64,000 bases of DNA, from NCBI RefSeq assembly GCF_020921035.1, contig NC_063157.1, positions 11,258,001 to 11,322,000 on the forward strand. The letters run 5' to 3'. The stretch is from Rhodamnia argentea. Lineage: Eukaryota; Streptophyta; Magnoliopsida; Myrtales; Myrtaceae. Numbering within the stretch: position 1 is the stretch's first letter; every line of letters starts with the position of its first letter. Made by a program: the position numbers and the translations under genes. Below, one piece after another: positions 6,284 through 56,260 of the stretch. Under the pieces are notes generated by a model. That model worked only from the letters and a program-made list of their open reading frames with translations. It was not told the DNA's origin and ran no database searches.

Positions 6284-6430
6284 TGACTGCCCAGCTTCTT
6301 CTTCGTGAAATATCAGGTTGCTTTCTCACTAGCAGAAGACAGAGCAGCAACCACCCATCATCGTCTTCACTCCCAACCGTTCAATTTCCATCTCCCTCTC
6401 TAGACCAAGGCCCGGCGATCAGTTCCGTGA

Positions 6431-7219
6431 ATGGAGCATCTTCTGGGGCTCTTGAGAATCCATGTTCACAGAGGGGTGAATCTCGCGATCCGAGATATCC
6501 GGAGCAGCGATCCTTACATCGTCATCCGAATGGGCAAACAGGTCAGCTCGTCCCCGCCATTTCCCGCTTCTTGTTTTGGTCCGTGATGGGTTTGTTGGAA
6601 CACCCATCTCGTTGTTTAGTGGTTTTTTGTTTGTTACCCTGCCTTTTTGGGTGATTTTCACTAGTTTCTGCTTCTGCGAGTACCGTATAGTTTTGGTCAA
6701 TTGAATCGACACCGGTGACCATAATCGCTCCAGGGCTTTGCTCTCTAATTAGGATTATCTGATCAAACGCATAGTAGGATTCTGTTGTGATTTCGGCTCC
6801 GTCTGATCTTTAAGTTTCGATGTGGGTCACAGAAACTGAAGACTCGGGTGATCAAGCAGAACACGAACCCGGAGTGGAACGACGATCTAACTCTCTCGAT
6901 CACCGACCCGAGCCTCCCCGTAAGAGTGTTGGTGTACGACAAGGACACCTTCAGCCCGGACGACAAGATGGGGGACGCGGAGTTCCACATCAAGCAGTTC
7001 CTGGAAGCCCTGAGAGTGCCGACGGACGGAGTCCCGAGCGGGTCCGTGATCGCCAGAGTGCCGCCCAGCCGGGACAACTGCCTGGCCGAAGAGAGCTGCA
7101 TCGTGTGGAGCGAGGGCAAGGTGGTCCAGGATATGGTCCTCCGGCTCCGCAACGTGGAGCGCGGGGAAGTCCAGCTGCAGCTCCAGTGGATTGAGGTTCC
7201 TGGTTCCAGGGGATTGTAG
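6431..7219 (+). CDS. C2-domain ABA-related (CAR-like) protein, copy 1
   Basis: A single-C2-domain protein of 165 aa, the normal size for plant CAR proteins. Family members bind acidic phospholipids in a Ca2+-dependent way and recruit PYR/PYL ABA receptors to the plasma membrane. Exon 1 is 6431-6541, the intron 6542-6832 (gt...ag) and exon 2 6833-7219. The start is the ATG opening MEHLLGLLRIHVHRG, which matches the family N-terminus. Likely Ca2+ ligands are present in loop 1 (D22, D27 in RDIRSSDP) and loop 3 (D73, D75, D81 in VYDKDTFSPDDKMGDA). It ends ...QWIEVPGSRGL. Copies 2 and 3 are paralogues downstream. The intron that splits copy 3 between residues 69 and 70 is absent here. The C2 and CAR assignment is strong; the ABA role is by family analogy. 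Confidence 0.9.
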
Positions 7220-7868
7220 AAGTGGCCAGGCCTTTGCTGTATGTTATGTTAATACGGCTCTTGCTAAATGAACAGAGGATGGACTTTCTCTGTACTCTGC
7301 TACTGATTGAATGAAGTTTTATTTTCGGATTTCTTTTCTTGAGTCATTTCAGTAACTGAAGGGTTCAGTCTGGAGCATTACCCATCTTGGAAAAGGACAG
7401 GTGAGTGCTGAAAACAAAGCGAAAATGGCAGAGAAGCAACCAGGGGTTTTCACCTTTCTATACGTTTGCTTCGAGTCATGTTTTGCTTTAGACGCGAGAT
7501 AATTCCGAAACAAAATCCACGAACATTAATCAGATGGATAAATTTTAAAGTATAACTAGAGACAAATACAAATTGACCAAATTCACCTCTAAGAAGAATA
7601 GTATTAGGAAAGTAGGGGTGTTAGATTATTGAATCGAAAAACTGAATCGAATCGAATCGAAATTTTGTGCATTTTTCGATTAAGGTTTTTAGTTTGGATA
7701 ATGGAAAAAGCCACATTTCTTTTTGTTGGTTCGAACCCCTAAATCCCTCAATTGACATCCTCCAAGAAAAATCCCCAAATCCTCTTTGCCGTCTCTCTCA
7801 ATCTATCCAAGCTAGATGAAACCCTAGATCAACCAATTGCAGAGAGCTCGAACCCCAGAGGCACATCA

Positions 7869-12674: not shown

Positions 12675-12815
12675 AGACCAGACCAGACATGGCGAATTGC
12701 CATCAGACAACCGAGCAAATTCCCAGTCTCCGTTCTACATCACGCAGAAAAAAGATATCAGAAGCACGTAGTTCATATTGGGTCTAAGGACAAGCGCAAG
12801 TCTGTCTCATAAGAA

Positions 12816-13429
12816 ATGAAACATCTTTTGGGACTTTTGAAAATTCACGTCTGCAGAGGAGTTAACCTGGCGATCCGAGATGTCCGAAGCAGCGATCCTT
12901 ATGTTGTCATCAGAATGGACAAACAGGTATATCAATCATGCCGGCGTCCAATCTCTGCGTCTCTTGTTTTTAAGTGGTTTGGAGTATGAATTTGCTTTCA
13001 GCTGAGCTCACCCAATTAGTTTCTTGATGCTTCCTGCAGAAACTGAAAACTCGGGTGGTCAAGAAGAACACGAATCCGGAGTGGAACGACGACCTGACTC
13101 TCTCGATCGCCGACCCGAGCCTCCCCATAAAGTTGATGGTGTACGGCAAGAACAGATTCAGCCACGACGACAAGATGGGGGACGCTGAGATCCACATCGT
13201 AGCCTTTCTCAACGCGTTGAGGATGAGATTGGATGATGTCCCGAGCGGAACCCTGATCACCAGAGTGAAGCCGAGCCAGGACAACTGCTTGGCAGAGGAG
13301 AGCTGTATTGTGTGGAGCGACGGCAAAGTGGTGCAGGACATGGTGCTTCGGCTCCGTGGCGTGGAGCGCGGTGAGGTCGAGCTCCAGCTTGAATGGATAG
13401 ACATTCCCGGTTCCAGGGGCCTGCAGTAG
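12816..13429 (+). CDS. C2-domain ABA-related (CAR-like) protein, copy 2, with altered Ca2+ loop
   Basis: A 166-aa paralogue of copy 1. Exon 1 is 12816-12926, the intron 12927-13039 and exon 2 13040-13429. No ATG lies between the TATA box and this start, which opens MKHLLGLLKIHVCRG. Loop 1 is intact (D22, D27 in RDVRSSDP). Loop 3 reads VYGKNRFSHDDKMGDA, so the usual Asp residues at 73 and 75 are Gly and Asn; D81 remains. Two Ca2+ ligands of the standard C2 site are therefore missing, which predicts weaker or Ca2+-independent membrane binding (inference). H13 to C and G35 to D are further differences from copy 1. Like copy 1 it lacks the intron after residue 69. It ends ...EWIDIPGSRGLQ. The frame is open and splice sites are canonical, so it looks functional as a gene. 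Confidence 0.88.
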
Positions 13430-13825
13430 GACTAGCTCTGTCAAATTTGATCATTGCGAGTTCAACTCGACGTACAGAAAAAGCTCTGATTATGTTCCTA
13501 ATCACTCTTCGATTTTTTACTTAACTTACTGGGCATGTAAGATGAGACTCTTTCAAGTTTCAATGTATCATTTCCAGGTCACTACACCAGTTTGGCAGCG
13601 AGTACTGGCTTCTTAGTTTCTGTCCATGAATTAACGAAAGCAATGATCCTCTCTCTCTCCCTCTCTCTCTCTCTTTGGTAGAGCTTTCTCTATAACCCAT
13701 CACGTGGGATGCTGCGAAGAGATCGTTTTTTGATGAATCTGAAGGAGGGAAGAGAAATGGAAGTCGCTTTCGGCAGTGGCTGAGAGTTGAGATTGCAGAT
13801 TTAAAGCCCATTTTGGAAGATTTTG

Positions 13826-23861: not shown

Positions 23862-25547
23862 CAGATTCGTATCCCCATTCTCTACCCAATATCATATCGT
23901 ACGTCGTAGCGACCGCTCCAACACTTCAAATCTTCTTGTCCAGATGTCCAATAAGCACATCATGCCACAAACTAATTCACCTGTGGCTCATAAGAAACGT
24001 TTACGAGGGAAAGTCGTTATTTTCTAATCTAAATACATCGTTTTCAATCCATGAAACACGTTTTTCGTACATCGATTTAGAGTTTCTTTTTCGAACAAAC
24101 GAATTCTAAAACATGATTGTCGAGTGTCCTGGCTCAGGCGGCACATTGGTCAACGGTGTTGTATGAAACTTCTGAAAGTGCTTCTAGAAACCTACGGGGC
24201 CGTTCGCCCGAAGGCACAGTCTGGTGTCCGCAGCATGGCAGGACGTAGAAGACAAAACAGAAAGTAGCACAGGAAGAGGAAACAAAACAATCTTGCAGCA
24301 AAAATAGTCAACGAACCCGCGGAGATCCCAATGAAAGACCCGGAACAGTCCTGCAAAGTGGAGACTGGCAAGCTGTAATAGTCTATTTTCCATTATGTTT
24401 CCTAAAATCTCGTACTATTTTAATTTAAAAAAATGAAATTCAACGGGAACAAGAGAAACCATGTCTTCATTCATGACGTTGTTAGGATCTCATATAAAAA
24501 AACTATGTCTTCATCGAAGATGTTGTTAGGGTCTCGTACAGGCCTTTATGGCCCTGGCCAGTTCAAATCCGGGTGTTGCCCGATCAAGAAAAAATTCCAA
24601 ATCTCTTATTTCATATTCGGGTCCATAACCATGGGTTCCAATGTATAGCCAACATAAATGATTTTAGTCATTATAAAAAGAAAATTAATTCTTAAATTCT
24701 TTTCACGCTCAAGTCATGTCATCTCTCCGATAGAGGGAATTTTTTTGTTTTTTATGATTTTCTTTTTCAGTATGAAATGAAAGGAAAAGAAGACCTTATG
24801 AAAATGGAATATTTTCACATGGAAGTTGTAAAATAGATATTGGACAGTCTAGAAATAGCGATTTGTTGACTAGTACCTGTCAAATCTTGCTCGATAATTT
24901 GGTTTGACTTTGTCGCCCGGATAATCCCGACCAGGCCAACCTTCAAAAACGAAACAGTTTCTACATAACCAATCATCCATAATATCAAATAAATCATACA
25001 TATCAAACTGATGTGATAAATTTACTCACAATTAATTTTTTGGTCATCAAAACCCCAAATCGATACATATGTAACAAATTTACCTTGCTTTCCGTTAGTT
25101 TCCATCAAATTGGGTTAAGACCCCAAAAAATATCGAACGGGTACTCTTATGACAAACAGAGGGAAAAAAATCCTAAACCGATACACCCGTCAACTACCAT
25201 ACGCCATCCAATTTAGCAATTTCATGATAATATTTAACGATTAATAGAGGGCACATGTGTACCAGCTTAGGACATTTGAGGTAAATTTATTATGGGTGCA
25301 TCAATTTGGGATTCTTCTTAGTATCAACCTAATTTACAACCCATGTAATGATTGTTGTTCAATATTTTTTTTTTTTTTTTGGAAAAACTAATAGATGATC
25401 AGATTCCGAAAGTTGTCTGCAGGAAATGTGCTTCGTATGAGTAGGACTCCAATTGTCAATTTAGGGGCCCACTCCCTTGACGCGTCCGTTCAATTTATAG
25501 AAAAGAAAATTTGAAGAAATGTTGATTTATTTCCCTGACGTGGGGGT
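23862..25547. other. Intergenic, no gene seen
   Basis: Short frames only, none with a recognisable domain. The minus-strand frame 24184-24393 is GC-neutral and unconserved in pattern. The 3' end of this interval is the upstream region of CAR copy 3. Confidence 0.5.
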
Positions 25548-25555
25548 TATAAAAG
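25536..25555 (+). promoter_or_regulatory. TATA box and ABRE/G-box-like site of CAR copy 3
   Basis: TATAAAAG at 25548-25555 lies about 150 bp before the ATG at 25705. TGACGTGG at 25536-25543 carries the ACGTG core bound by ABRE/G-box bZIP factors. Regulation by ABA is inferred from the motif and family only. Confidence 0.5.
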
Positions 25556-25704
25556 AGCGCCCTGATCAAGCCGGACTTTGCGGTGCCAAGGCCTAGCATC
25601 AGCGGAGCATCGAAGGCGGCACCGTCTTCCGCCGTCCGACGAGAACACCCGCACGAATTTCAAGACCCATTTGAACACCAGAATCGTTCGGCGTGCGGGT
25701 TCTA

Positions 25705-26773
25705 ATGGAGGATACGTTGGGCCTGCTCAGGATTCACGTCCACAGAGGAATCAACCTCGCCGTCAGAGACCTCAGAAGCAGCGATCCTTACGTTGTTGTG
25801 AGGATGGGCAAGCAGGTACTGATGTCTGTGTTCTTTTCCTCCTCCTTTTGGTCCCCTGTTTCGGCGATTTCTCTGTTTTCGGTGCTCTTTGGCTTGTGGG
25901 GGATGCTGATCTTTCTGATGTTAGCCGGATCGAGCCAGTCGACAGTACAGTGGTGCTTATTGTGGCTGTTTCGAATTGAACACGGCGATCTTGGGCACAA
26001 ATGGGGACGGTTGTTGTCATAGATTGAACGATGGCTGTAGTTGCGTTCTTGCCTGAAAAAGAATAAATAGTGCAGGGCAAGAAAGATGACATTAATCGCA
26101 ATTCTTATCGTAGCCACAGGAAATGTACCGTGCTTTCAATTACCGCTTGATTCGTTCTGCTTTGTTTACTGCTTTTCTTGTCTGAGATGGATGAAGTCAG
26201 TGTGGTGTAACTAAGATCAAAGGCCGAGGCCCTCGGTTTCGTTCGCTTGAACTGATGACCCTGCTTTCTGCGTATGTGTTTGCAGACAGTGAAGACTCGC
26301 GTTGTGAGGAAGAATCTCAATCCCGAGTGGAACGAGAACTTGACTCTTCTTGTTACTGATCCTGATCTTCCTGTGAAGCTTGTGAGTGACGACTGCTGCA
26401 ACCGCATCGAATCAGTAGAGTGACAGAGAGGGTTTCCCGCTTCTTCGTAATGACTGCTTGTTTCCGTTCGCCGCAGGAAGTATATGACAGGGACAGATTC
26501 AGCCGCGACGACAAAATGGGGGACGCGGAGTTCGATATCAGGCCATTCCTGGAAGCCGTGAGGATGGAGGCGGACCTGGGAGGCCTCGAAGATGGGACCG
26601 TGGTCACGAGGATCCCGGCGAACCGGCAGAATTGCCTGTCCGAGGAGAGCTGCATCATGGTGAGCAACGGTGAAGTGGTGCAGAACATGTTCCTCAGGCT
26701 CCGCAACGTCGAGTGCGGAGAGATTGAACTCGGGTTGCGCTGGGTTCACGTTCCCTCTCCCAGGGAATTATGA
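25705..26773 (+). CDS. C2-domain ABA-related (CAR-like) protein, copy 3 (three exons)
   Basis: A 167-aa CAR-like C2 protein. Exons are 25705-25815, 26286-26381 and 26477-26773; introns of 470 and 95 bp have gt...ag ends, and all junctions are phase 0. The start is the ATG of MEDTLGLLRIHVHRG, aligned with copies 1 and 2. Loop 1 (D22, D27 in RDLRSSDP) and loop 3 (D73, D75, D81 in VYDRDRFSRDDKMGDA) keep the Ca2+-binding Asp set, so it should be a Ca2+-dependent phospholipid-binding protein. The second intron, between L69 and E70, is absent from copies 1 and 2. It is more diverged from them than they are from each other, so it is the older branch. It ends ...WVHVPSPREL. A long TC microsatellite begins 4 bp after the stop. 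Confidence 0.9.
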
Positions 26774-26777
26774 AGCT

Positions 26778-26784
26778 TCTCTCT

Positions 26785-26834
<50 letters not shown>
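26778..26834 (+). repeat. (TC)n microsatellite
   Basis: An almost pure TC run of about 57 bp starts 4 bp after the CAR copy 3 stop codon, so it lies in the 3' UTR of that transcript. Confidence 0.9.
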
Positions 26835-26836
<2 letters not shown>

Positions 26837-27146
26837 GTCCGTTCACGGCACAAGTTTCTTTTCGCTCTCAGACAATTTTGCAGGATTTGAAGCTATTAGA
26901 ACAGAGGTGTTAGACTGGATTAACTAAATCTCGACTCATTCTATTGCTAACCCATTCAATGGCCGAGCCGCTCTAAAAGCATATGGTGGTAGGGATTAGG
27001 AGCACAAATACAACGAAATAGAAAGTAAAGACGAGAAAAATAATTCGAGATACAAGGTTTATCTTGATTCACCCTTCAATTAAGGCTACGTCCATCAAAA
27101 AATTGCACTATAATCAGCAATTCCTAGCTCTCTATTATAACTTTTA

Positions 27147-28732
27147 GGAAAAATTTCAAAAAAGGCTTGGAGTGGCCTCGTTTTCTCAAAAAAGGGCCTA
27201 GAGTAAATATCGTTTCAAATAAGGGCCTAAAGTGCTCAAATCATTTCAAATAAGGGCCTAACCGAAGGATAATTTTGTCTTTTAAATTTCTGGCCTTTTC
27301 TTTTCTGTTTTTCTTTTTTTCTCCTCCCCTTCCCTCGCCTCCCGTTCATCATCTCTTCTGACTTGAATGCACGGTGGTCTTCGTCTTCCATCTACCGACG
27401 CACTCGGGGAAAGAGAGAGAGAGAGACCAAGGGTTGGGTCGTTCCTTCATTTCTTTCCCTCGCGACGAATGGATTGATCGGAAGTGAGGCTTTGAGCCGG
27501 TCTTGCGAAGGGATTTCGTTGGGTGTTTCCGAATGGTGGAGAGATTTTGTGGACCAGCGATAAAGAAACCGTAAAAACGAGGCGTTCCGATGGTGACCAA
27601 TAACAATAACTCATCGGAGATGCCGGAAGAGCCGAGCATCGACACCGACAAAACTCAACTACGAGATCTTCTCAATCCTTGAGAGCAAGTTCCTCTTCGG
27701 CTACGACAACCCCAAGCTCTGGGTCCCCAAGCAAATGAACCCAAAAACCACCCACCGACGCCGATGCGGACAATAACAACCCCTCCGCCATCAAGAACCA
27801 GCGAGGCAAAATCTGCATCCTTGCCGTTGATTGCGGCGGCATGCGGGGCATGCTCCCCGGCAAAGCCCTCGCCTATCCGGAGCACACCCTCAAGTCGAAG
27901 TTCGACAACCCGACGCCTAACATCGTTGACTACTTCGACGTCGCCGTGGGCAATGATGTAGGTGGCATCCTTACCACCACGCTCTTCGCCACAAAGGACC
28001 ACACCCGCCCGATTTTCCGGGAAAACGACATGTGGAAGTTTCTCGCCGACCACGGCCGGAAGTTCTATCGCTCACGGCCCGTCTCCGGCTCGGGCGGGTT
28101 CCCGCGGGGGGCTCCGCTCCACGTCGTCGGCGACGGCCGAACCGGAGAGGCTCGTGAGGGAGTCCTTCCGCGACGGGCGGGAAGGGAGCCGACGCCGAGG
28201 GACACGCCGAAGCCGGTTACGGTGCCGTGCTACGACTTGACAAGCTCGGCACCACTCCTGTTCTCGCGTGCGGACGCGTTGGAAATGGACAGGTTCGACC
28301 GACTTCCGGCTCTGGGAGGTGTGCCGAGCCACGTCGCCAGAGCCTAGCGTCCGGGAGCGTGTGCAGATGCGGTCGATGGACGGGCGGACGCGGTGCGTGG
28401 TGGTGGGAGGGACGTTGGCGATGAGCAACCTCGTGGCGGCAACGATCACGCATGTGCTGCACAACAAGTGGGAGTTCCCGTTGGTGCGAGGGATGGAGGA
28501 CCTGTCGAAGAAAACGTGCTGGAGGAGACGATGAACAGGGGAGGGGAGGGGAGGAGAACAAAAAAGAAAATAGAAAAGAAAAGGCTAAAAGATTAAAAGA
28601 CAAAAATGTCCTTCAATTAGGCCTCTATTTGAAACGATTAAAGCACTTCGGGCCTTTATTTGAAACGATGTTCACTCTAGGCCCTTATTTGAGAAAATGA
28701 GACCACTTCGGGCCCTTTTTTGAAATTTTCCC
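27147..28732 (+). mobile_element. Mutator-like element carrying a captured gene fragment (Pack-MULE)
   Basis: Inverted repeats of about 150 bp: the left starts GGAAAAATTTCAAAAAAGG, and the right in reverse starts GGGAAAATTTCAAAAAAGGG. The match continues through three AAATAAGGGCC-type modules to about 27300 and 28578. A perfect 9-bp direct repeat TAACTTTTA flanks it (27138-27146 and 28733-28741), the hallmark target duplication of Mutator elements. The interior holds no transposase but a GC-rich patatin-like gene fragment. Confidence 0.85.
27590..28510 (+). pseudogene. Patatin-like phospholipase fragment, frameshifted
   Basis: Landmarks in order are EIFSILESKFLFGYDNPKLW (about 27660), NQRGKICILAVDCGGMRGML (about 27795-27855, the DGGGxRG oxyanion region), then DYFDVAVGNDVGG at the nucleophile elbow, LFATKDHTRPIF, KPVTVPCYDLTSSAPLLFSR, FRLWEVCRATSPEP and ITHVLHNKWEFPLVRGMEDL. 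This is the core of a plant patatin-like protein. The elbow lacks the GxSxG serine, as in the pPLAIII branch (family assignment inferred). Frameshifts near 27650, 27760-27800, about 28085 and 28290 and a truncated C-terminus make it non-functional. It lies entirely between the MULE inverted repeats. Confidence 0.85.
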
Positions 28733-28741
28733 TAACTTTTA

Positions 28742-29464
28742 ATTACAAAAGAAATGAAATTATATATATAAGCAGTTATCCATTAATCTAAATACAAACT
28801 ATTAATAAAATACTTATTCAAACTATAAAAATCATCTAACTATTCGAGACGCTGTTCCGGTGAGCCGGTGAGTAGGCAGAAAGTTAAAGGGATTCTCATA
28901 CCTTCTTGTCGATGAGAAATATAAACCACATCTCGAAGCAATTACACTACAGACAATACATCTTTAGATATTACTTCTTCTTCTTGAGACCAGCACACCC
29001 TCGTTAATGTGGGCATTAGTGAGAATCATGCTCAATTATCAAAATGCAGCACTTCACTAAAACTTATTTCTACGATAACTTAGCCTGAAAACGTGGACAG
29101 CTCAGTGTTCCCTCCTCCTGACCTCTGCGCACCATGGCTCTTGCCGCCGTCCTACACTTATTCCTCCGCGGCCGGCCGGCTCCTCACTACTACTGTGAAC
29201 CCCTCTCTCATTCCGTTCGTGATAAGCTTAGTCCGCTTTCCTTTTGGTTCACGCATGTCACCGTCCAATGTGCTGCTCCGGGGTGGCTCGCCGGAGCAAG
29301 TGACACCAGCGCTGCCGCGCACAAGGGCAACTTCTTGGCGACTCCAATGGGATTGGGCCTTTCAAGAGCAATGGGCCTACGTAGCATGTGTTTGCATCTG
29401 TTGTCCTTAATTTTTCACCTTGGGGCTGTGGTCCAAGCCTCAGGAGTCACAGGCTCATGGCCGG
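28742..29464. other. Intergenic, no recognised gene
   Basis: A GC-richer patch with plus-strand frames at 29093-29410 and 29134-29616 has no recognisable domain and runs into the AT-rich arm of a MULE remnant. I treat these as non-coding. Confidence 0.45.
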
Positions 29465-30012
29465 CAGCCCAATATTTTAATATTATTTTAATTTTTTTTA
29501 ATTTTATCTTTATCTTTTTTTTCTCTTATTTTCTTCCTCCCTCCCGTCTTCTTCCTCTAGCCAATCACCAATGCTCCTCGACTGGCCAAAGGACAGCCGC
29601 CTCGGCCTCGTTGTAGCCGGGCGAGGCCGAGCCTCATAGTGGCCGAGCGAGGGTTAGCTTGCTAGCCCGGATCCGGGCGAGGATAGCCGAGCCGGCCCCG
29701 CGACGGCAAGGTCGAGCCTCGCCTGCCAAGATCCGGGCAAGGCTCAGCCTCCTCGGCCCCTAGCGAGTCCTGTCGTTCCTCCGAAGAAGAGGGAAGGGAC
29801 AGGAAAGGAAAAAAAAAGGAAAAGAGAAAATTTAATAAAATTTAAAATAATATTAAAATTTAGGTGACCGGCCGGCTAGGGTCCACGTCAGCGCTGGAAG
29901 GCCAAAGTTTTTTGGGTGGACTAAATTGACACAATTACAAAAGGTTTAGGATTGAATCGGCCAAAAAAAAGTTTATGATTGAATTGACACAATTGCAATA
30001 AATTTAAACTAT
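29465..30012. mobile_element. Truncated MULE-type remnant with GC-rich core
   Basis: A GC core (about 29575-29770, gcgaggccgagcc-type) is flanked by AT-rich arms. The right arm ends with ttgacacaattacaaaagg and ttgacacaattgcaataaattt, as in the other local MULEs. A matching left terminal repeat is not visible, so the copy is truncated. Confidence 0.45.
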
Positions 30013-30509
30013 GATAACTCTCAATTGTCTAGCAAACACAGCCCTTTTGGATCATTCCTTCAAATGAATCTGCTATCACATTCGAGTAACGGGGCTCCTA
30101 AATACAACCCACGCGGTAGGCTCCTCTTTTTCGAACTTTGTTGTCAGTTCTCACCGCCAATATTCGAAATAAGACTTTGATGAGCCAAATTTGACAGGGT
30201 TAAAAATGCATTTGAACAAGTTATTTGATCGTGTGGACCCCACTTTTCGTTCATGTGATCTGAGCCATCACATTTACTGCCCTTATGTGCTCCGATGCAG
30301 CTAATAATTTTATCTGGGATTGATCACCTCTACGGCGTAGCCCGGAATGGAGCGGCACGATCTTCTTGGAAAAAAAAGTCAAAGCCTTTCTCAGCCGTTG
30401 GATGCGAATGGGATCCGAGGGGTCCACATTCCCTTTTGACTTCCAATGATCCACGTCTCGTTCTCGACCCTTCAACTCGGAAAAGTGTCTCGCTTCGCCA
30501 ACCTATAGC

Positions 30510-30517
30510 TATAAATA
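30510..30517 (+). promoter_or_regulatory. TATA box of GGP
   Basis: TATAAATA lies 227 bp upstream of the main ATG, which implies a leader of about 195 nt that contains the uORF. Confidence 0.65.
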
Positions 30518-30578
30518 CAGATTTTGCCGCCTCAAGAAAGAGGGAGAAGCAGAATCGCCGGAAGGAATCTAGAGAAAT

Positions 30579-30731
30579 ACGGGTCTCGTGACGGACGGAG
30601 AACTCCCGACGAGAACTCTCACCGGATTCCCCGCGGCAAAGACAAAAACAACCAGAGCGAAAACCGACTGCGATCCCTTCCGCCGCCGGCGGATCCCGGG
30701 GACACCCTTTTTGCTGCAACAGAAACGTTAA
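30579..30731 (+). promoter_or_regulatory. Non-AUG (ACG) upstream ORF in the GGP leader
   Basis: A 50-codon frame starts at ACG 30579 (context aatACGG, with A at -3 and G at +4) or at ACG 30591 (context gtgACGG). It ends with TAA at 30729-30731, 5 bp before the main ATG. An in-frame stop at 30570-30572 precedes it. The peptide is basic in the middle (PFRRRRIPGTPFLLQQ near the C-terminus). Plant GGP/VTC2 leaders are known to hold a conserved ACG-started uORF through which high ascorbate represses translation. I identify this frame with it by position, start type and peptide character, not by alignment. Confidence 0.7.
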
Positions 30732-30736
30732 AAAAG

Positions 30737-33470
30737 ATGTTGACGATCAAGAGGGTGGCGACGGTTGTGTCGAATTACCAGGAGGAGGGTGGCGAGAAGG
30801 ATAATGTTGCTGTTGCAGTCGGAGGGGAAGCCAAGGGATGCGGTCGTAATTGCCTCGGAAAGTGCTGTTTGGCCGGTACGTCCCCTGTGATCATACGCTT
30901 CTTTTTCTTGTTCTCTTTCGGTGTATAAGAATTATAACTCACTGTCGCCGATAGTCTGCGGCTTAGTCGTATGTTCGAACGCGACTGGATTGTTGTCGTT
31001 GGGTTCGGATGATATCAAACTTTTCTCGTTTTATGCGGATATCAGAAGATTGTTTGATTTGGATGTCTCTTTTATGCGACAAAGAGCTACTTAGAGACTA
31101 TAGGGTACATTAGCTTGGAGAAGCTCATCCTATTTTTGTTCTGTCACATGTTTCGTGGCATATTTCTTTGATGTTCTGATTGTTCGACAGCCGTGGGTAG
31201 TTTTCTCGCCGGAAAAGATTCCTGGGTCGGTTCTTAGGCTTTGCAGAAGGGACAGGAAATTGCGCATTTTGTTTGGCTTTCTTTGCTTCCTGGCGAAGTT
31301 ATGACTGTTAGGTTTTGAGCTTTTGATTCCTGGTGTATAAAGCTAACTGTGAAATTGCGATAAACCGAAGTCGACCATCTTCTTTTGTCGCCATATTGTG
31401 TGCTGGAAGCTAAAGTCTTGATTAAGCTTCAAGTTGTATGGAGGTTTTCTGATCCTTATCTTATGGGAGTGATGCACATTTTACATAGGAGCGGCCAGCG
31501 GCTTTTCTTGATTTTCAATCATTCCCCACTGCCTGGAGAAGTGACATTATAGCGTCAAGGATAAAAGATTACAGAAAAATAATGGCTGTCCTCGTACCAG
31601 AGAGGATCGAAAAGCAGCAGTAAATTCAATAATAGACATATATGTGTGAATATGAGATGCATTGCGTGTGGTGAGAGGGGAGATGATGTGGATGTTTGGT
31701 TCAAGTTTTCTAATGTCGGCATTAGCTGGTACCTGATTTAGCTGCTAATTGCAGCATCAGACCTTCCTCTGTACACATTCAAGGTACCCGGAGAAGATTG
31801 CGCTGAAGAATCCGTCCTTTCCCTGAAACCACCTCAGATGTCTTTCCTGCTTAATCTCTTACTTGGACAGTGGGATGATCGGATGAATCGAGGTCTGTTT
31901 CGCTACGACGTAACTTCGTGCAAGAAAAAGGTTATTCCTGGCGACAATGGCTTCATTGCGCAGCTGAACGAGGGGCGCCACCTCAAAAAGCGCCCGACTG
32001 AGTTCCGAGTGGATCGAGTTCTCCAGGATTTCGATGGGAAGAAGTTCAATTTCACCAAAGTTGGCCAAGAGGAAGTGCTTTTTATGTTCGAACAGAGTGA
32101 TGACTGCTACAGCCACTTCTTCCCCAGTGCCCCCGCCATTTTCAAGCCTACTTCTCCTAATGTTGTGGCAATCAACGTAAGTTCATTGCTTCTTTAACAC
32201 TAAACATTATGCAGGTCTTAATTGATGTCCACTGATTGCTGACGGTCTAAGTTGGTTAAACTTCTTCAGGTAAGCCCGATTGAGTATGGGCATGTTCTCC
32301 TTATACCCCGTGTTCTCGACTGCTTGCCTCAGAGGATCGACCGGGCAAGCTTCTTTCTGGCTCTGTCTTTGGCTAGAGAGGCAGCAAATTCTTTCTTCAG
32401 AGTGGGTTACAACAGTCTAGGCGCATTCGCCACCATTAACCATCTTCACTTCCAGGTGACCTTAATTGAACACACTTCAATCCATGATTTGGCCGGCCGA
32501 TTGAGCTACTTTTCTTTTCCATGGAAGGAAATTCTGACCTTTCTTTTTTCACCAAATAGGCGTTAATTACTTAAGCCGTTTATCTTGTTCTTACAGGCGT
32601 ATTATCTGGCTTCTCCGTTCCCGGTTGAAAAGGTTCCTACTCTGAGAGTAATGACTTCCGCGAGCATGCAGAGAAATGGAGTAGTTGTCTCACAACTCCT
32701 GAAATTCCCAGTCCGTTCAGTCGTGTTCGAGGGTGGGCATACTCTACAGGATCTGTCCGATGCGGTTGCTAATTCCTGCATACGCCTTCAGCGCAACAAC
32801 ATCCCTTTCAATGTACTGATCGCTGATTGCGGCAAAAGAGTGTTTCTATTTCCACAGGTAAGCTTTCATTTTCTTGCTTTCCTGACAGATTGACGGTTTA
32901 ATGTCAAAGAACCAGGTCTCACACTGGAAGTGAATTTTGAGTCAAGAGTTGTGTTTTAGGAGCAAGTAAGAAAATGTTTCTAATTCTTTCTAAGGATACA
33001 ATTGATGCTCTCTGTAGTTATTCTCGGTAAATTCTGGTGGTCACCACAGCACAATGTTGTGTATTTTCATCATAAGTTTTTAATGATCACGCATCTGATT
33101 GTGCTCTGTGTCAATGGGTCAGTGTTACGCAGAGAAGCAAGCTCGGGGAGAAGTGAGCCAAGAACTTTTGCAAACTCAAGTAAATCCCGCCGTCTGGGAG
33201 ATCGGCGGACACATAGTGTTGAAGCGACGCGAGGACTTTGAAAATGCATCGGAGGACTATGCATGGAGACTCCTTGCGGAGGTTTCCCTATCGAAGGAGA
33301 GCTTCCAAGAAGTAAAGGCTCATATCTCGGAAGCGGCAGGCTTGCACGAGATATCAGATACTGCGGCGCATAACTTGCATCAGAAGGAAGGACCTGTGTC
33401 CACATCTTCTGCTCCTACAGCCACCACGCATTTGCATCAGGACTGTCTGGTTGTGAAAGGCGGGGCATAG
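30737..33470 (+). CDS. VTC2: GDP-L-galactose phosphorylase
   Basis: Catalyses GDP-L-galactose + phosphate to L-galactose-1-phosphate + GDP, the controlling committed step of the Smirnoff-Wheeler ascorbate pathway. It acts in the cytosol, with nuclear localisation also reported. Exons: 30737-30875, 31755-32176, 32270-32455, 32597-32857 and 33123-33470; all introns are gt...ag, the phases join cleanly, and the product is 451 aa against about 440 for Arabidopsis VTC2. The N-terminus MLTIKRVATVVSNYQ and the Cys cluster CGRNCLGKCC are family landmarks. The HIT-type catalytic motif is H245-L246-H247-F248-Q249 (INHLHFQ), split from AYYLASPFPVE by an intron. The C-terminal region includes QVNPAVWEIGGH and ASEDYAWRLLAE. 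The leader carries the ACG uORF, so feedback by ascorbate is expected. Equivalent to VTC2/VTC5; which of the two cannot be decided here. Confidence 0.95.
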
Positions 33471-42810: not shown

Positions 42811-43499
42811 AGGAAAATTTATCAAAAAAGTCATAAATCTATTATACTTTTGCCAATTCATTTCTAAACCTCTTAATTTTTCCAATTCAGTCTTGAACAT
42901 TTTACATTTGTATAATTTAATCTTAAATCTTTTTGTGTCAATTCAGTCTTAAGCCTTTTGCATTTGTGTCAATTCAATCCATTTAATCAACTTTGGTCGG
43001 CCAGCACTAATTTGGATTTTTAATGACATTTTAATATTTTTTTCTAATTTTTTTACTTTCTTTATTTCTTTTCTTTCTTTTCCTTTTTTTTTCCCTTTCT
43101 TCTTCCTCTAGCCGATCGTTGCCAAGGTCGAACTCGCAAGTCTCGGGTGAAGCTCGCCCAAACCAGCATTGGGCGAGGCTAACCTCGTCAACACTAGCCT
43201 CTCACCGATCACACCAAAGAACCTACTGGAGGAAGAAGAAAGGAAAAAAAAGAAAAATAGCAATTTTTTAAAAATATTTACTAAAAATTATTCACATTAA
43301 AGCCAGTCAGCCAAAGTTGATCGGATTGACCGAATTGACACAATTGCAAAAGTTTAGGACTAAATTGGCACAAAAAAAGGTTTAGGATTAAATCCGCACA
43401 AGTGCAAAAGATTTAGGATTAAAATTGAAAAAATTAGAATGTTTAGAATTGAATTAATAAAAGTGCAATAGATTCATGAGTTTTTTTTACAATTTCCCC
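42811..43499. mobile_element. Non-autonomous Mutator-like element (about 690 bp)
   Basis: The left end AGGAAAATTTATCAAAAAAG, and the right end in reverse GGGGAAATTGTAAAAAAAAC, continue into long imperfect inverted arms with several ccaattcagtcttaa modules. Near 43100-43230 there is a GC-rich core (gtcgaactcgcaagtctcgg). The flanks GATTGTTAG and AATTGTTAC share ATTGTTA, 7 of 9. Confidence 0.6.
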
Positions 43500-49078: not shown

Positions 49079-49733
49079 GGAAAATTTCAAATAAGGGCCC
49101 GAAGTGCTTTTGTTTTTTTAAATAAGGGCTTGAAGTGAACTTTATAACTCTTATTTTTTCAAAAAAGAACCTGAAGTGAATCTTATTTCAAATAAGAACC
49201 TGAATTATACATGAAGTCTAAAAAAAAAGAGCTTAGTCTCAAGGGCATTTTTGTCATTTCCCTTTATTCGATTTTTTCGTTTTTATTTTTATTTTCCTTT
49301 TTCTATTAAAAAAAAAAAAACACACACACACACACACACAAAGGTGAGAGGGCTACCGAGGTCACCGATGCTTGGGCGAGGGCCAGAATCAAGCAACCAC
49401 GGCCCTAGTCAAGGCGAGGGCCAATGTCTTGGGTGAGGGCACAACCCTCCGCCGCTCCGCTCCACGGGGTCGTTGGCCTTTGCTGACCCCCCATCAACGA
49501 TGGGGCGGCAACCACAGGCGAGCCTATATGTCTATTTTTTTTTTTTTTTTCCTTTTTTTAAAGAATATAAAAATGAAAAAAAAATCAAAAGGGGAAATGA
49601 CGAAGCTGCCCTTCGGGCCAAATCCTTTTTTAAGATTTCATGGCCACTTCAAGCCCTTATTTGAAATAAAATTCACTTCGAACTCTTATTTAAAAAAATA
49701 AAAGCGCTTCGGGTTCTTATTCAAAATTTTTCC
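49079..49733. mobile_element. Non-autonomous Mutator-like element (655 bp), same TIR type as the Pack-MULE
   Basis: The left end GGAAAATTTCAAATAAGGGC and the right end in reverse (GGAAAAATTTTGAATAAGAACC) continue in aagtg-cttattt modules exactly as in the Pack-MULE at 27147. The flanks are A-rich on both sides (AAAAAAAGA and AAAAAAAAA). A (CA)n run and a GC-rich core with gcgagggcc motifs lie inside. No gene captured that I can recognise. Confidence 0.65.
49320..49341 (+). repeat. (CA)n microsatellite
   Basis: A short pure CA run inside the MULE at 49079-49733. Confidence 0.85.
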
Positions 49734-51305: not shown

Positions 51306-52045
51306 AGATGTAGACCGTCCATGCAAGGGGGACAAATGGTGCCTAAACTTTGGTATAATGCGTAACATCGTCCCTAGAGTTTTTAATTTGTTCAATACAG
51401 CAACTAAGCTATTGGTAAATATTTGATTTAGTCTCTAGATTATATGAAGAATGTCTAATATCGTACTTCCATTCTATTAATTCAAGGTGATAAAATTTGC
51501 TGATGTGGCTTCCAATTCGTTAAATTTGAACCATTGGCTACCAAAAAAAAAGTTACTCGTCGATTATTCAAGTAAGATATCCATATTCAATCAGAATATA
51601 ATGATCCACGTTGTCAAATAACCTTGGACATGTTAACACCCTAGTTTGTTTTTTTCTTTTGCCCTTTTCTAAAGTAATGATGGCAAAAGGATGGCAATTA
51701 AACATTAAAATAGTCATAAGACTCTACGATCTGTTTGGACCATGCGGCATAAGTTCGATACCTTCACCCGAGAAATTGTCGAGAAGAAATCCAAGTTCGA
51801 GCCCGTCGATATATTCAGTTGAAGCCATATTTACTTAAAAGCTCAAATCAATAAGTTATGAGCTGACTAGGATATGTTAACGGTTCTAAATCTCATAAAT
51901 TCTGCGATGTACGACTACATTTACTCAAAAGATTAGACTGATAAGTTATTAGCCAATAGGATATGTCAACAGCTCTAAATCCCACAAATTCTGCAATGCG
52001 CGACTTTTTTAACGCAACTCATACATGCATTTCGACACTTCCCAC

Positions 52046-52357
52046 GTTGGCCTTGCACGGGTGATTGGTGTTGAGATACAGACAGCGTTGCATTTTTTCT
52101 GGCTTATACGCCCGATCATCTTCTGTTCCCGTCAGTCGATTCGCTCGGACCCTATGGACAATTCAGGATCGAAGCAAGTCCAGTCAGATCTTCTTCTTTT
52201 TACCATGGGACCAAACACCAACACGGGTCCTTCCAAGTTCCTTAATAATTGATCCAAACAGTGCTCGCTCCATTGTTCATGGTGACATTGACGAGAGTTA
52301 TTTTAATCGACAAGTCCCCTCGGTTTGATTAGCACCATCAATATATGAGAAAAAGCT
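52046..52357 (+). repeat. Dispersed duplicate segment, copy 2
   Basis: The second copy of the segment at 50967-51305, about 1.05 kb downstream in the same orientation. Neither copy holds a conserved open frame, so a non-coding repeat or an old promoter-type duplication is more likely than a gene. Confidence 0.7.
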
Positions 52358-53139
52358 AAGAGATGCCGATCCGTTTGGTCGGATTGAGTGCATTGGGTAG
52401 GTACTCAAAAGAAAAAAAAAAGCTCCGTACATAAATAAAGTAATATCAATCAAAGTAGATAGAAATATTTACTTGCAACAAGAATATAAACTTTTTTTTT
52501 TTTGGTTCTGGACGCAGAGTGCCTGATCATCCATTTATCCCTGATAGCTTCATCGATCTCTCGAAAATCCGAGAAGAAGATTGACATTATTCGTGTCTAG
52601 TGCAACGACTTATATCAATTGGATTTGGAGTCGATCGTTACGGTGGGGATGACGGTTGACCATCTTAGATTAGTTCAAAGACTTATATAAATGAGATTGA
52701 AAGTTTAAAGAAGGCATTACATGTCGATATATTAACCCTCCAGATTGGCGAACGGACAAACAAGAATCAACAAAGCCTGATTAAATTAATTTAGGCCCGG
52801 TTTACCAGCTGACATGACAGTTGCCATGCATGCTTTTTGCATTATTGCTAACGTGTCCCAACTTTTCGTCTCCCCCTCATCATTATCATCGAAAAAATTA
52901 TTCCAAGTGTCGTGACATGATCTCTCCAGTTTCCATCGTAATCGATATTTACTGCCTCCTTCGCGGGTCTTTGCTTTATCGGTCGTCTCGTCTCTTGGCT
53001 TCGACGGAGGCACCGTACACCGCTCCATCCGGTCTTTCTTTTCTCTATAGAGATAGTATCATTGGTCAATCTGGGAAATCTTATTATGTCGTATGAAAAA
53101 AAAAAAAGAGAAAAAAAATTCAAAAAAAGTAAAAAACGA

Positions 53140-53400
53140 AAATGCCATTCGACCGGTGGGGTCTGATCCTTTTTCGAGACTTATATGGCCACTTCAAGTT
53201 TTTATTTGAAACATGATCCATTTCATTCCTTTATTTAAAAATAATAATAATATTTCAAGCTCTTATTTGAAATAATGTCCATTTCGGATCTTTATTTAAG
53301 AAAATGATGAAGTTTCAGGCTCTTATTTAAAATAATGTCCATTTTAGGCATTTATTGAAGAAAATGATGGCACTTCAAACCCTTATTCAAAACTTTCCCA
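53140..53400. mobile_element. Solo right terminal repeat of a Pack-MULE-type element
   Basis: In reverse it begins GGGAAAGTTTTGAATAAGGG and carries four to five AAATAAGAGCC-type modules, as at the ends of the elements at 27147 and 49079. No matching left repeat is visible, so the element is truncated. Confidence 0.5.
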
Positions 53401-53671
53401 AACTTTAACATCTTTTTTTTGCTCTTCCTATTGAATATTCTTTAATATTATAAATTTAAAATCTTTCTACATTGATATACTATGACTTAAAATTTTCGTA
53501 GTTATTTTGTTCAAAAGAGGAAGATTTAACGAGTTATTAATGTTAAGATTTAACAAGTTATTAATGTCAAAAAACATGTTACAATTTAAAGAAATGAACA
53601 TTTTCACCTTCTACTAGTGATAATTACACTGTCTGATATTAGTATTCTTTGACTAACCCATCTTAATTTCA

Positions 53672-54292
53672 CGGGATAAGTACACCGGAAGTGCCATAGC
53701 TTGAGTACGGTTCACTTGAGGTTATAACTATTTTTTTTTCCTTCACTTGATGCCACAACTTTTAAAAATCGATCACTTAAGTGCTATCGCCAATTTATTT
53801 GGTCGGAAATCTTACGTGGCCAACGAAAAATCTAACATGGTATTGCCGGAGTAGTTTTTTTTTTATTTTTTTTAATGTACACATGCATTTTTAAAAAAAA
53901 ATTATTTATCTTGAAAATTTTCCTTTTCTTTTGGCTTTTTCTGCATGTTTTCACCCCATGAACGAGGCGGCCCTCGCCCCTAGGCAAGCCAGTCAGGACC
54001 TATGAGGGTCATCAACGACCCTCACTGGCCAAGGGGAAGAAGACCAAGAAAAAAAATAAAAGAAAAAGCTATTTTCAAAATTAAATGCAAAATAAAAAAA
54101 TATTAAAATTAATACAAAAAATCCACTTGTCAATGAAAAATTAATAAAAAAGTCCACGTATGATGATTTGTCAGAAGTGGCACTCAAGTGAATGATTTTG
54201 CTCCGACGTGCCACTTAAGTGAGCGAAAAAAAATTTATGGCACTCAAGTGAACGCCATATAAAAGTTATGGCACTCCTAGTAAACTTATCCC
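53672..54292. mobile_element. Non-autonomous Mutator-like element (621 bp), perfect 9-bp TSD
   Basis: TTAATTTCA flanks both ends (53663-53671 and 54293-54301). The terminal repeats are GGGATAAGTACACCGG and, in reverse, GGGATAAGTTTACTAGG, followed by gtgccata and cacttgag modules repeated in both arms. No coding content. Confidence 0.75.
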
Positions 54293-54450
54293 TTAATTTC
54301 ATCATGGAAATTTCATATTTTGAGCAAGTTCATTATGCCTTATATATTTAATATTAAATGACATCTTAAAAAATGCCATTCGTATTTGCCATGACAACTT
54401 CATATTTAGATTTGAAAAGGAAAATTCATTTTGTGTATCCTGTATTTATG

Positions 54451-55350
54451 GGAAAACTTTCCAGAAAGTCCTAAATCTATTATACGACGGTCAATTCAAT
54501 CTCAAAATTGTCAATTGTGTCAATTTAGTCATAAAACTTTAAGTAGGGAAGCTCTAGGGTTTTGCTAACCAGTGTGACGTTGAGTTATATGTTCCCTAGT
54601 TCATGCGATTTCTCAAAGTAGTCCTTCCAATCAATTTAAACCGAAAATCGATGACGTGGCCATTTAGTCAATGCCGAGGGTGCTACGTGACATTACCGAC
54701 GTTGACATGAACATTTTTAAAACGATTTGTGATTTTTTTTCTCCTTTTATTTCTTTTCTTTTCTTTTCACAAGTGGTCGATCTTAGGCGAGTGATGTGTG
54801 GGCTAACCTCCCCGAGAACCGGCGAGGCTCTGGGGCGAGGGTCACCGTGCTCGCTGGCCATATTGACAAAGAAATAAAGAAAAGAGTAAAGAAAATGAGA
54901 GAGAAAGAAATAATTTCAAAAAAATTAGAAAAAACTTTAAAAAATTATAAAATTGTTCACGTTGTCTCCAAATGTGCCACGCAAAAGATTAGCGTCCACA
55001 TCAACAATCTTTTGCCAAAAAGAAAAATTGTCAAAAAGTTTGGTGAGGGTCGACTTCGTCCGCGACGTGCAAGATCCTAGAGCAAGGGTCGCCGGGCTCG
55101 CTGGGTACAATTAAAAAAAAAAGAGGAAAGAAAAAAAGAAGCAAATAAATAATTTTAAAAATCACAAAAAAAATTTCAAAAAAAATTGTAAAATTATACA
55201 CATCGGCTCCGGCTGTGCTACGTAAGAGATCGGTATCCATGAGCAATCTTTTTTCGAAAGAACAAATTGTCAGAAAGCTTAAAATAAAACTAGGTTTAAG
55301 ACTAAATTAGTATTCGTATAATAGGCTATTGACTTATTGATAATTTCCCC
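54451..55350. mobile_element. MULE-type composite element
   Basis: The left end GGAAAACTTTCCAGAAAGTCC and the right end taatttcccc (reverse GGGGAAATTA) bound inverted arms. Two GC-rich cores (about 54780-54860 and 55030-55110) suggest a nested or duplicated element. No target duplication was confirmed. Confidence 0.45.
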
Positions 55351-56260
55351 ATGAATTTCTATTAGTTAATTTGCCTCATGGTGTGTGCTTCATCTCAACT
55401 CGTATGGCCATGTGAGGCCCTTTTAAATAGAGCTCACACTGCTTATACAGGCGGATTTTGATTCGTGCTTTCTAGGCAATAACTTGTGAAGGGAGAAATT
55501 GAAGAGGAAACGTTACATAGGCCTGAACCTATCCTACTTTTGATAGGGCGTTTATTAAAATTATGTCAAGCGACAAGTTACCATGAATAAGATAAGAGAA
55601 TTATTCTCTCCTCGTCCTCCCCTCTTCGCTCCCTCCCTCCATCTTTTGCGTAATCCTCTACCCCATCTCAGCTTTGTGCGCCATCGCTGCCTCCTCGGAT
55701 GTCGAACAGCCGCCGCCTCGCAAGGATCGCCAAGGCCGCTGGTGTACGACCCCAAAAAAAAAGAAATTACAATTCAAAGATTTAAGACTAAATTAGTATT
55801 TGTATAATAGGCTTTTGACTTATTGATAATTTCCTCATGCATATCTATTAGTTAATTTGCCTCATGGTGTGTGTTTCATCTCTAACTCATATGGCTATGT
55901 GAGGCCCTTTTAAATAGAGCTCACTCTGCTTATACAGGCGGATTTTGATTCGTGCTTTCTAGGCAATATCTTGTGAAGGGAGAAATTGAAGAGGAAAAGT
56001 TAGGTAGGCCTGAACCTATCCTACTTCTGACAGACCGTTTATTAAAATTATGTCAAGCGACGATGTACCATGAATAAGATAAGAGAATTATTCTCTCGTC
56101 CCCCTTCTCTCCCTCCCGCCACCTTTTGCGTAAACCTCTGCCCCATCTCAGCTTTGCACGCCATCGCTGCCTCCTCGGATGTCGAACGGTCATCCCAACC
56201 TCCCGCACCACCACTGTGGTAGTAGCCGCCGCCTTGCAAGGATCACCAAGGCCGCTGCCG
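55301..56260 (+). repeat. Tandem duplication, two units of about 486 bp
   Basis: actaaattagtattcgtata at 55301 recurs at 55787 and the match runs on through agttaatttgcctcatggtg, acaggcggattttgattcg and ccatcgctgcctcctcgg to about 56255. The units differ by substitutions and small indels. The first unit begins inside the right arm of the preceding MULE. Confidence 0.8.

Follow-up and report, generated by a model that had tools for sequence, protein, structure and literature searches.

The interval 27147-28732 of the window (the whole stretch of 64,000 nucleotides that was analysed, placed on contig 8) is a complete non-autonomous Mutator-like element. We consider it highly probable (roughly 0.9) that it belongs to a multicopy Pack-MULE family holding a piece of a group III patatin-related phospholipase (pPLAIII) gene that was captured once, spread in waves and then drifted neutrally. 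The Pack-MULE with a captured patatin-like fragment that had been proposed in a first-pass annotation is supported by elements with the same TIRs and different loads elsewhere in the genome, as well as by a candidate donor gene that is free of TIRs.

Structure of the element

The features discussed below are as follows (window positions; strand where one applies).

27138..27146, no strand: target site duplication, left copy TAACTTTTA, exact match to 28733-28741
27147..27358, plus strand: left TIR, largely units of about 30 bp with GGGCCTAAAGTG-like cores
27346..27589, plus strand: captured donor pPLAIII 5' leader (L018 alignment from donor position 1501; ATG at 27590)
27427..27831, plus strand: stretch absent from the short subfamily (roughly element positions 281-685, with limits that differ by a few bases from copy to copy)
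27590..28504, plus strand: captured part of donor pPLAIII exon 1 with a broken frame, start codon through ...VRGMEDL
27955..27957, plus strand: nucleophile-position codon GAT (Asp); Gly (GTGVG) in the donor and both subfamily consensuses
28507..28732, minus strand: right TIR, of which 28522-28732 pairs with the left TIR
28733..28741, no strand: target site duplication, right copy TAACTTTTA, exact match to 27138-27146
49079..49733, no strand: another element with TIRs related to these (84% over 62 bp at one end), filled with different GC-rich sequence
53228..53399, minus strand: one related TIR end alone, with no partner arm to match it in window 52000-55000

The element starts with GGAAAA and ends with TTTCCC. 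Its limits in the first-pass annotation held to the base, with TAACTTTTA directly outside both ends, and we confirmed the perfect 9-bp target duplication, which lies within the 9-11 bp expected of a Pack-MULE. At other spacings of 1000-2600 bp within the window, identical 9-mers were found in 182 of 14,206,972 sampled pairs (1.3e-5). The inverted repeats reported earlier are also real, but longer than the 150 bp or so first given: BLAST aligned 27144-27358 with 28735-28522 at 82.9% over 217 columns (E 4e-56; three bases of the target duplication are included), and since this alignment extends the arms to 27358 and 28522, each measures about 212 bp, within the range of about 100-500 bp for Pack-MULE TIRs in the available text of PMC3310237. 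A stricter alignment of the arms gave 165 identical among 193 ungapped columns, and their local alignment score was 240, whereas none of 500 single-base shuffles scored above 30. The inner end of the left TIR overlaps the beginning of the donor-derived sequence (donor match from 27346), while on the right, positions 28507-28521 are also counted as TIR, judged from differently loaded relatives, in which the TIR is about 226 bp long. The CpG observed/expected ratio was 0.62-0.66 in the TIRs (27147-27358 and 28522-28732; small counts, five each) versus 1.16 in the cargo (27585-28521).

Surroundings in the window

Three copies of a small C2-domain-type gene stand in tandem in the window (about 6401-7230, 12780-13450 and 25680-26773), and the element lies 364 bp past the stop codon of the third (26771-26773). 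Pfam C2 was found in the first two copies and not in the scanned frame of the third; we take these genes to be CAR-like. The third copy has an extra intron-like insert of 95 bp (GTGAGT...GCAG, 26382-26476) splitting an exon that the other two copies have in one piece; this may be either an intron gain in the third copy or a loss in the others. Elsewhere, the window holds a tandem duplication at 55292-56187 (about 417 columns at 91% identity) and a long self-inverted repeat at 42824-43486 (66% over 705 columns). Sequence resembling this repeat recurs near 8.7, 17 and 29.9 kb, perhaps as another MITE-like family.

The cargo and its candidate donor

The insert is GC-rich, as had been noted (0.615 for 27585-28521 versus 0.404 for the window), and its patatin-like character was borne out by a match of its longest frame to patatin-17 (1oxw; E 5.7e-12), though this frame reached only 17 bits against Pfam Patatin, under the cut-off of 27.7. 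Reading through the pieces of the insert improved the match to 1oxw (E 1.3e-13) and gave 19.8 bits for Pfam Patatin, still under the same cut-off. No transposase was found by Pfam in the four forward stop-to-stop frames scanned, and the sequence enclosed by the TIRs can be aligned to the donor; both observations count towards a non-autonomous Pack-MULE. Comparison with the donor also confirmed the frameshifts claimed for the insert. Sequencing error was set aside as their cause because L014, a copy of the long subfamily (see below), has several frame breaks in common with the long consensus, and because long open frames (PPR, EF-hand) are present in the same window.

The candidate donor (L018) lies on the minus strand of contig 5 at 3933054-3934222 and matches element positions 200-1358 only, and the captured interval is a contiguous 1169 bp running from the donor 5' leader into exon 1. 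The donor frame is open from MASNNNN through DAGGMRG, GTGVGG and VGGG, scores 61.6 bits against Pfam Patatin over the full profile of 191 positions, and is followed by a splice donor (CAG/GTACGC) and an acceptor (TTTCAG/GCAAATGG) leading to a C-terminal exon, pointing to an intact-looking two-exon pPLAIII gene. No TIR match was detected around it in 9.5 kb (L048) at E 1e-3. The search for a donor patatin gene that the first-pass annotation had suggested thus yielded a candidate, in L018 and L048, in which the captured host-gene piece exists without TIRs. Among the at least 117 matches listed, we saw the whole captured interval free of TIRs nowhere else; a parental paralogue closer than L018 may exist, since 40 of 1916 candidates were scored.

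According to the available text of PMC4623698 and PMC4253999, the GxSxG box is replaced by GxGxG in pPLAIII proteins, and the Asp of the DGG motif is mostly absent. The donor and both subfamily consensuses likewise have GTGVG. At the presumed place of the DGG motif, positioned by eye with no tool alignment reaching there, the donor reads VGGG and the short consensus VGGA. The two exons of the donor, as read from its sequence, agree with the few introns of pPLAIII genes and with the two exons of rice OspPLAIII-alpha in the same sources. By contrast, the element copies hold just the 5' leader and part of exon 1 in a broken frame. These comparisons bear on the missing GxSxG serine. It is absent from this copy, as reported, but its absence came with the donor, which already has GTGVG, the GxGxG box of pPLAIII, and is a matter neither of partial capture nor of loss in the transposon; loss of a catalytic serine after capture is thereby ruled out. 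This copy reads GNDVG at the esterase box (GAT, Asp), which, judged against the donor and the consensuses, would be a change later than capture.

Copies across the genome and other cargoes

In the whole-genome search (346.7 Mb), 40 of 1916 candidates were scored, and the family counts are therefore lower bounds. At least 117 matches were obtained, and besides the element itself they include full-length copies, six at 90-95% identity and two at 85%. Among 30 loci examined, three represented elements already counted and five (L015, L018, L033, L034, L035) lacked one or both ends, leaving at least 22 distinct elements with both ends, all carrying the patatin cargo in whole or in part. A perfect 9-bp duplication at the exact ends was present in 17 of these 22 and missing from five. 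The 600-bp flanks were unrelated between loci, with the exception of L023 and L030, whose shared flanks reflect a local duplication about 16 kb apart; at least 22 elements in otherwise unrelated flanks indicate mobility.

The long subfamily, to which the element at 27147-28732 belongs, comprises seven copies (L008-L014; 1575-1625 bp, 2.2-5.6% from their consensus), while the short subfamily comprises ten (1157-1230 bp, 5.5-10.8% from theirs), lacking the stretch given in the feature list. Five elements (L016, L017, L021, L026, L032) fall in neither. One of them, L026, is chimeric: its patatin 5' part is followed by unrelated DNA of 41% GC that replaces the 3' half (L026:2191-2860) and has a TATA-like stretch, perhaps the promoter of another gene.

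The search for further copies of the TIR pair that had been recommended did find differently loaded elements. Ten further TIR-matching places (L038-L047) were picked among the genome matches listed. Both ends are present in eight (L038, L039, L040, L042-L046) and not in L041 or L047. Among the eight, six (L038, L040, L042, L043, L045, L046) have a perfect duplication of 9 bp or more, L039 matches at 8 of 9 positions and L044 has none. The donor sequence is absent from nine of the ten places, and L047 has 107 bp of it. A single other cargo is common to seven elements (L038, L039, L040, L042, L043, L044, L045), the six other copies being 81.7-91.3% identical to that of L039. A frame of L045 matched exo-poly-alpha-galacturonosidase (3jur; E 6.5e-5) and, at E 0.09-0.19, three further pectin enzymes; Pfam gave no match for L045 and a sub-threshold DUF2160 (E 0.05) for L039. 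These matches point to another multicopy cargo, apparently polygalacturonase-like, between the same TIRs.

Within the window, Pfam gave no match for the one frame scanned of the element at 49079-49733, and its duplication is uninformative because of poly-A flanks.

Selection and decay

Singleton changes within the subfamilies fit neutrality. In coding stretches of the long subfamily, 39 of 113 were synonymous (36.7 expected; 0.35 of simulations as high), and in those of the short subfamily 53 of 161 (55.0 expected; 0.66 of simulations as high). Over whole elements, C>T/G>A changes made up 142 of 268 singletons in the long subfamily and 181 of 344 in the short. Per site, they occurred in the long-subfamily cargo at 0.028 in CG, 0.037 in CHG and 0.0084 in CHH contexts (roughly three and four times the CHH rate for CG and CHG, respectively), and in the short subfamily the CG and CHG rates were about twice the CHH rate. 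Given the neutral singletons and the richness in C-to-T changes, the cargo appears to behave as a non-coding passenger that is probably methylated, although CpG in the cargo of this copy is not depleted (observed/expected ratio as given above), which counts against a reading as methylation decay. A protein-level function after amplification was rejected, since the singletons fit neutrality, and a protein-level effect at the 27147-28732 locus is most likely nil.

Compared to the donor, synonymous differences were in excess in consensus A (40 of 83, 25.7 expected) and consensus B (23 of 47, 14.6 expected). The excess was also present in L014, L016 and L017, weak in L021 and absent from L032. It suggests that constraint acted somewhere on the branches between donor and elements, and we tentatively attribute it to selection on the donor gene.

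A possible small-RNA effect on the donor

Transcripts or hairpins of the elements might instead give rise to small RNAs with an effect on the intact pPLAIII donor, which we consider unlikely. Exact matches in at least one of the 22 copies were found for 368 of 1180 donor 21-mers, 90 of them in this copy (21-mers from donor positions 1501-2700, extending 31 bp beyond the captured interval), but such sharing is expected from any captured piece. The long inverted TIRs would suit this explanation, the C>T excess in CG and CHG contexts is compatible with small-RNA-directed methylation, and 24-nt small RNAs are described on rice genic-MULEs in the available text of PMC4858842; against it, no Rfam family reached the gathering score in window 24000-32000. 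That the broken copies act as a dispersed source of small RNAs tuning the intact pPLAIII gene would be a shade less likely again.

One capture or two

Both the left and the right junction are identical in the two subfamily consensuses. At the left junction of the patatin elements, TIR and donor overlap by 7 nt (TCATCTC), and at the right there is little or no overlap (our reading against the relatives). This fits, but does not prove, the gap filling guided by short overlaps that is discussed for Pack-TIR elements in the available text of PMC8277862.

The shared junctions argue against two independent captures, in which the same gene and the same TIR family would have founded the long and short subfamilies separately. 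We regard this alternative as rather improbable, though several observations lean towards it. In the core tree of 21 sequences (the donor and 20 elements; L026 and L032 were omitted for short coverage), the seven long copies and L017 fork at 100/99 and the ten short copies at 97/96, with the donor between the two subfamilies, albeit with weak neighbouring forks (86/75 and 88/68). The short consensus is also closer to the donor over the shared core (641/688, 93.2%) than the long consensus (609/673, 90.5%), this copy having 590/671. In addition, the same TIRs took up the polygalacturonase-like piece, which makes repeated capture possible. The frame-breaking gaps differ between the subfamilies, with uncertain placement in the GC-rich middle, and count neither way. 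Near the DAGG motif, five of the seven sequences compared (consensus A, consensus B, L014, L016 and L021) depart from the donor in the same small way; of the other two, L017 has many gaps in this stretch and L032 has no coverage. Amounting to a few bases, this difference lends weak support to a single capture, and the shared gap pair, once taken as proof of one, was demoted when inspection reduced it to those few bases.

Under the single capture that we favour, the contig 5 gene or a close paralogue would have been copied into a gap between inner TIR ends, and two or more waves of spread would then have been driven by a MULE transposase made elsewhere. The frame would have been broken separately in each subfamily before its spread, after which the cargo would have undergone neutral drift and the C-to-T decay expected from CG and CHG methylation.

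A resident patatin pseudogene lying by chance between unrelated inverted repeats is refuted as an explanation: apart from the broken frame nothing was found in its favour, homology ends at the inner ends of the TIRs, and the unit of TIR, cargo and TIR recurs in whole or in part, with both ends, at no fewer than 21 other places in the genome, of which 16 have their own perfect duplication.

Relation to known Pack-MULEs and significance

Capture of a gene piece by a Pack-MULE is a well-known kind of event. The family resembles the Pack-MULEs of rice, maize, tomato and Arabidopsis, as far as the available texts of PMC3310237, PMC8277862 and PMC4858842 describe them, in its 9-11 bp duplication, its TIRs of 100-500 bp and its GC-rich captured gene piece, often multicopy and with a donor unlinked to TIRs; in rice, 36% of Pack-MULEs (481/1337) are multicopy, as quoted in the portion of PMC8277862 at hand. 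It differs from those described there in carrying a piece of a pPLAIII gene, in TIRs made largely of units of about 30 bp, and in having, between the same TIRs in other elements, another multicopy cargo of polygalacturonase type. Our literature search found no publication combining Pack-MULE and patatin and none with the motif strings of the element, and for Pack-MULE with polygalacturonase or with Eucalyptus it returned just single co-mentions, those for polygalacturonase under titles on other subjects. Relatives of the cargo protein numbered zero confirmed in IMG/VR and bacterial genome contigs and zero in plasmids. TIR-pattern matches in IMG/VR (four single) and genome contigs (three single) aligned over at most 41 bp and were judged to be chance, and another TIR pattern search of IMG/VR gave no matches.

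The family is a well-resolved case of capture: a single genome shows the candidate donor, junctions, subfamilies, duplications and neutral decay, with two unrelated cargoes between the same TIRs. Capture models such as short-overlap-guided gap filling, as well as donor silencing, thereby become directly testable. It is also a warning that automatic annotation could call the broken patatin copies genes. Should the small-RNA effect on the donor be true, one transposon capture would have put a growth-related lipase under the control of a transposon family, and the same TIR family may have done likewise with a second gene of polygalacturonase type.
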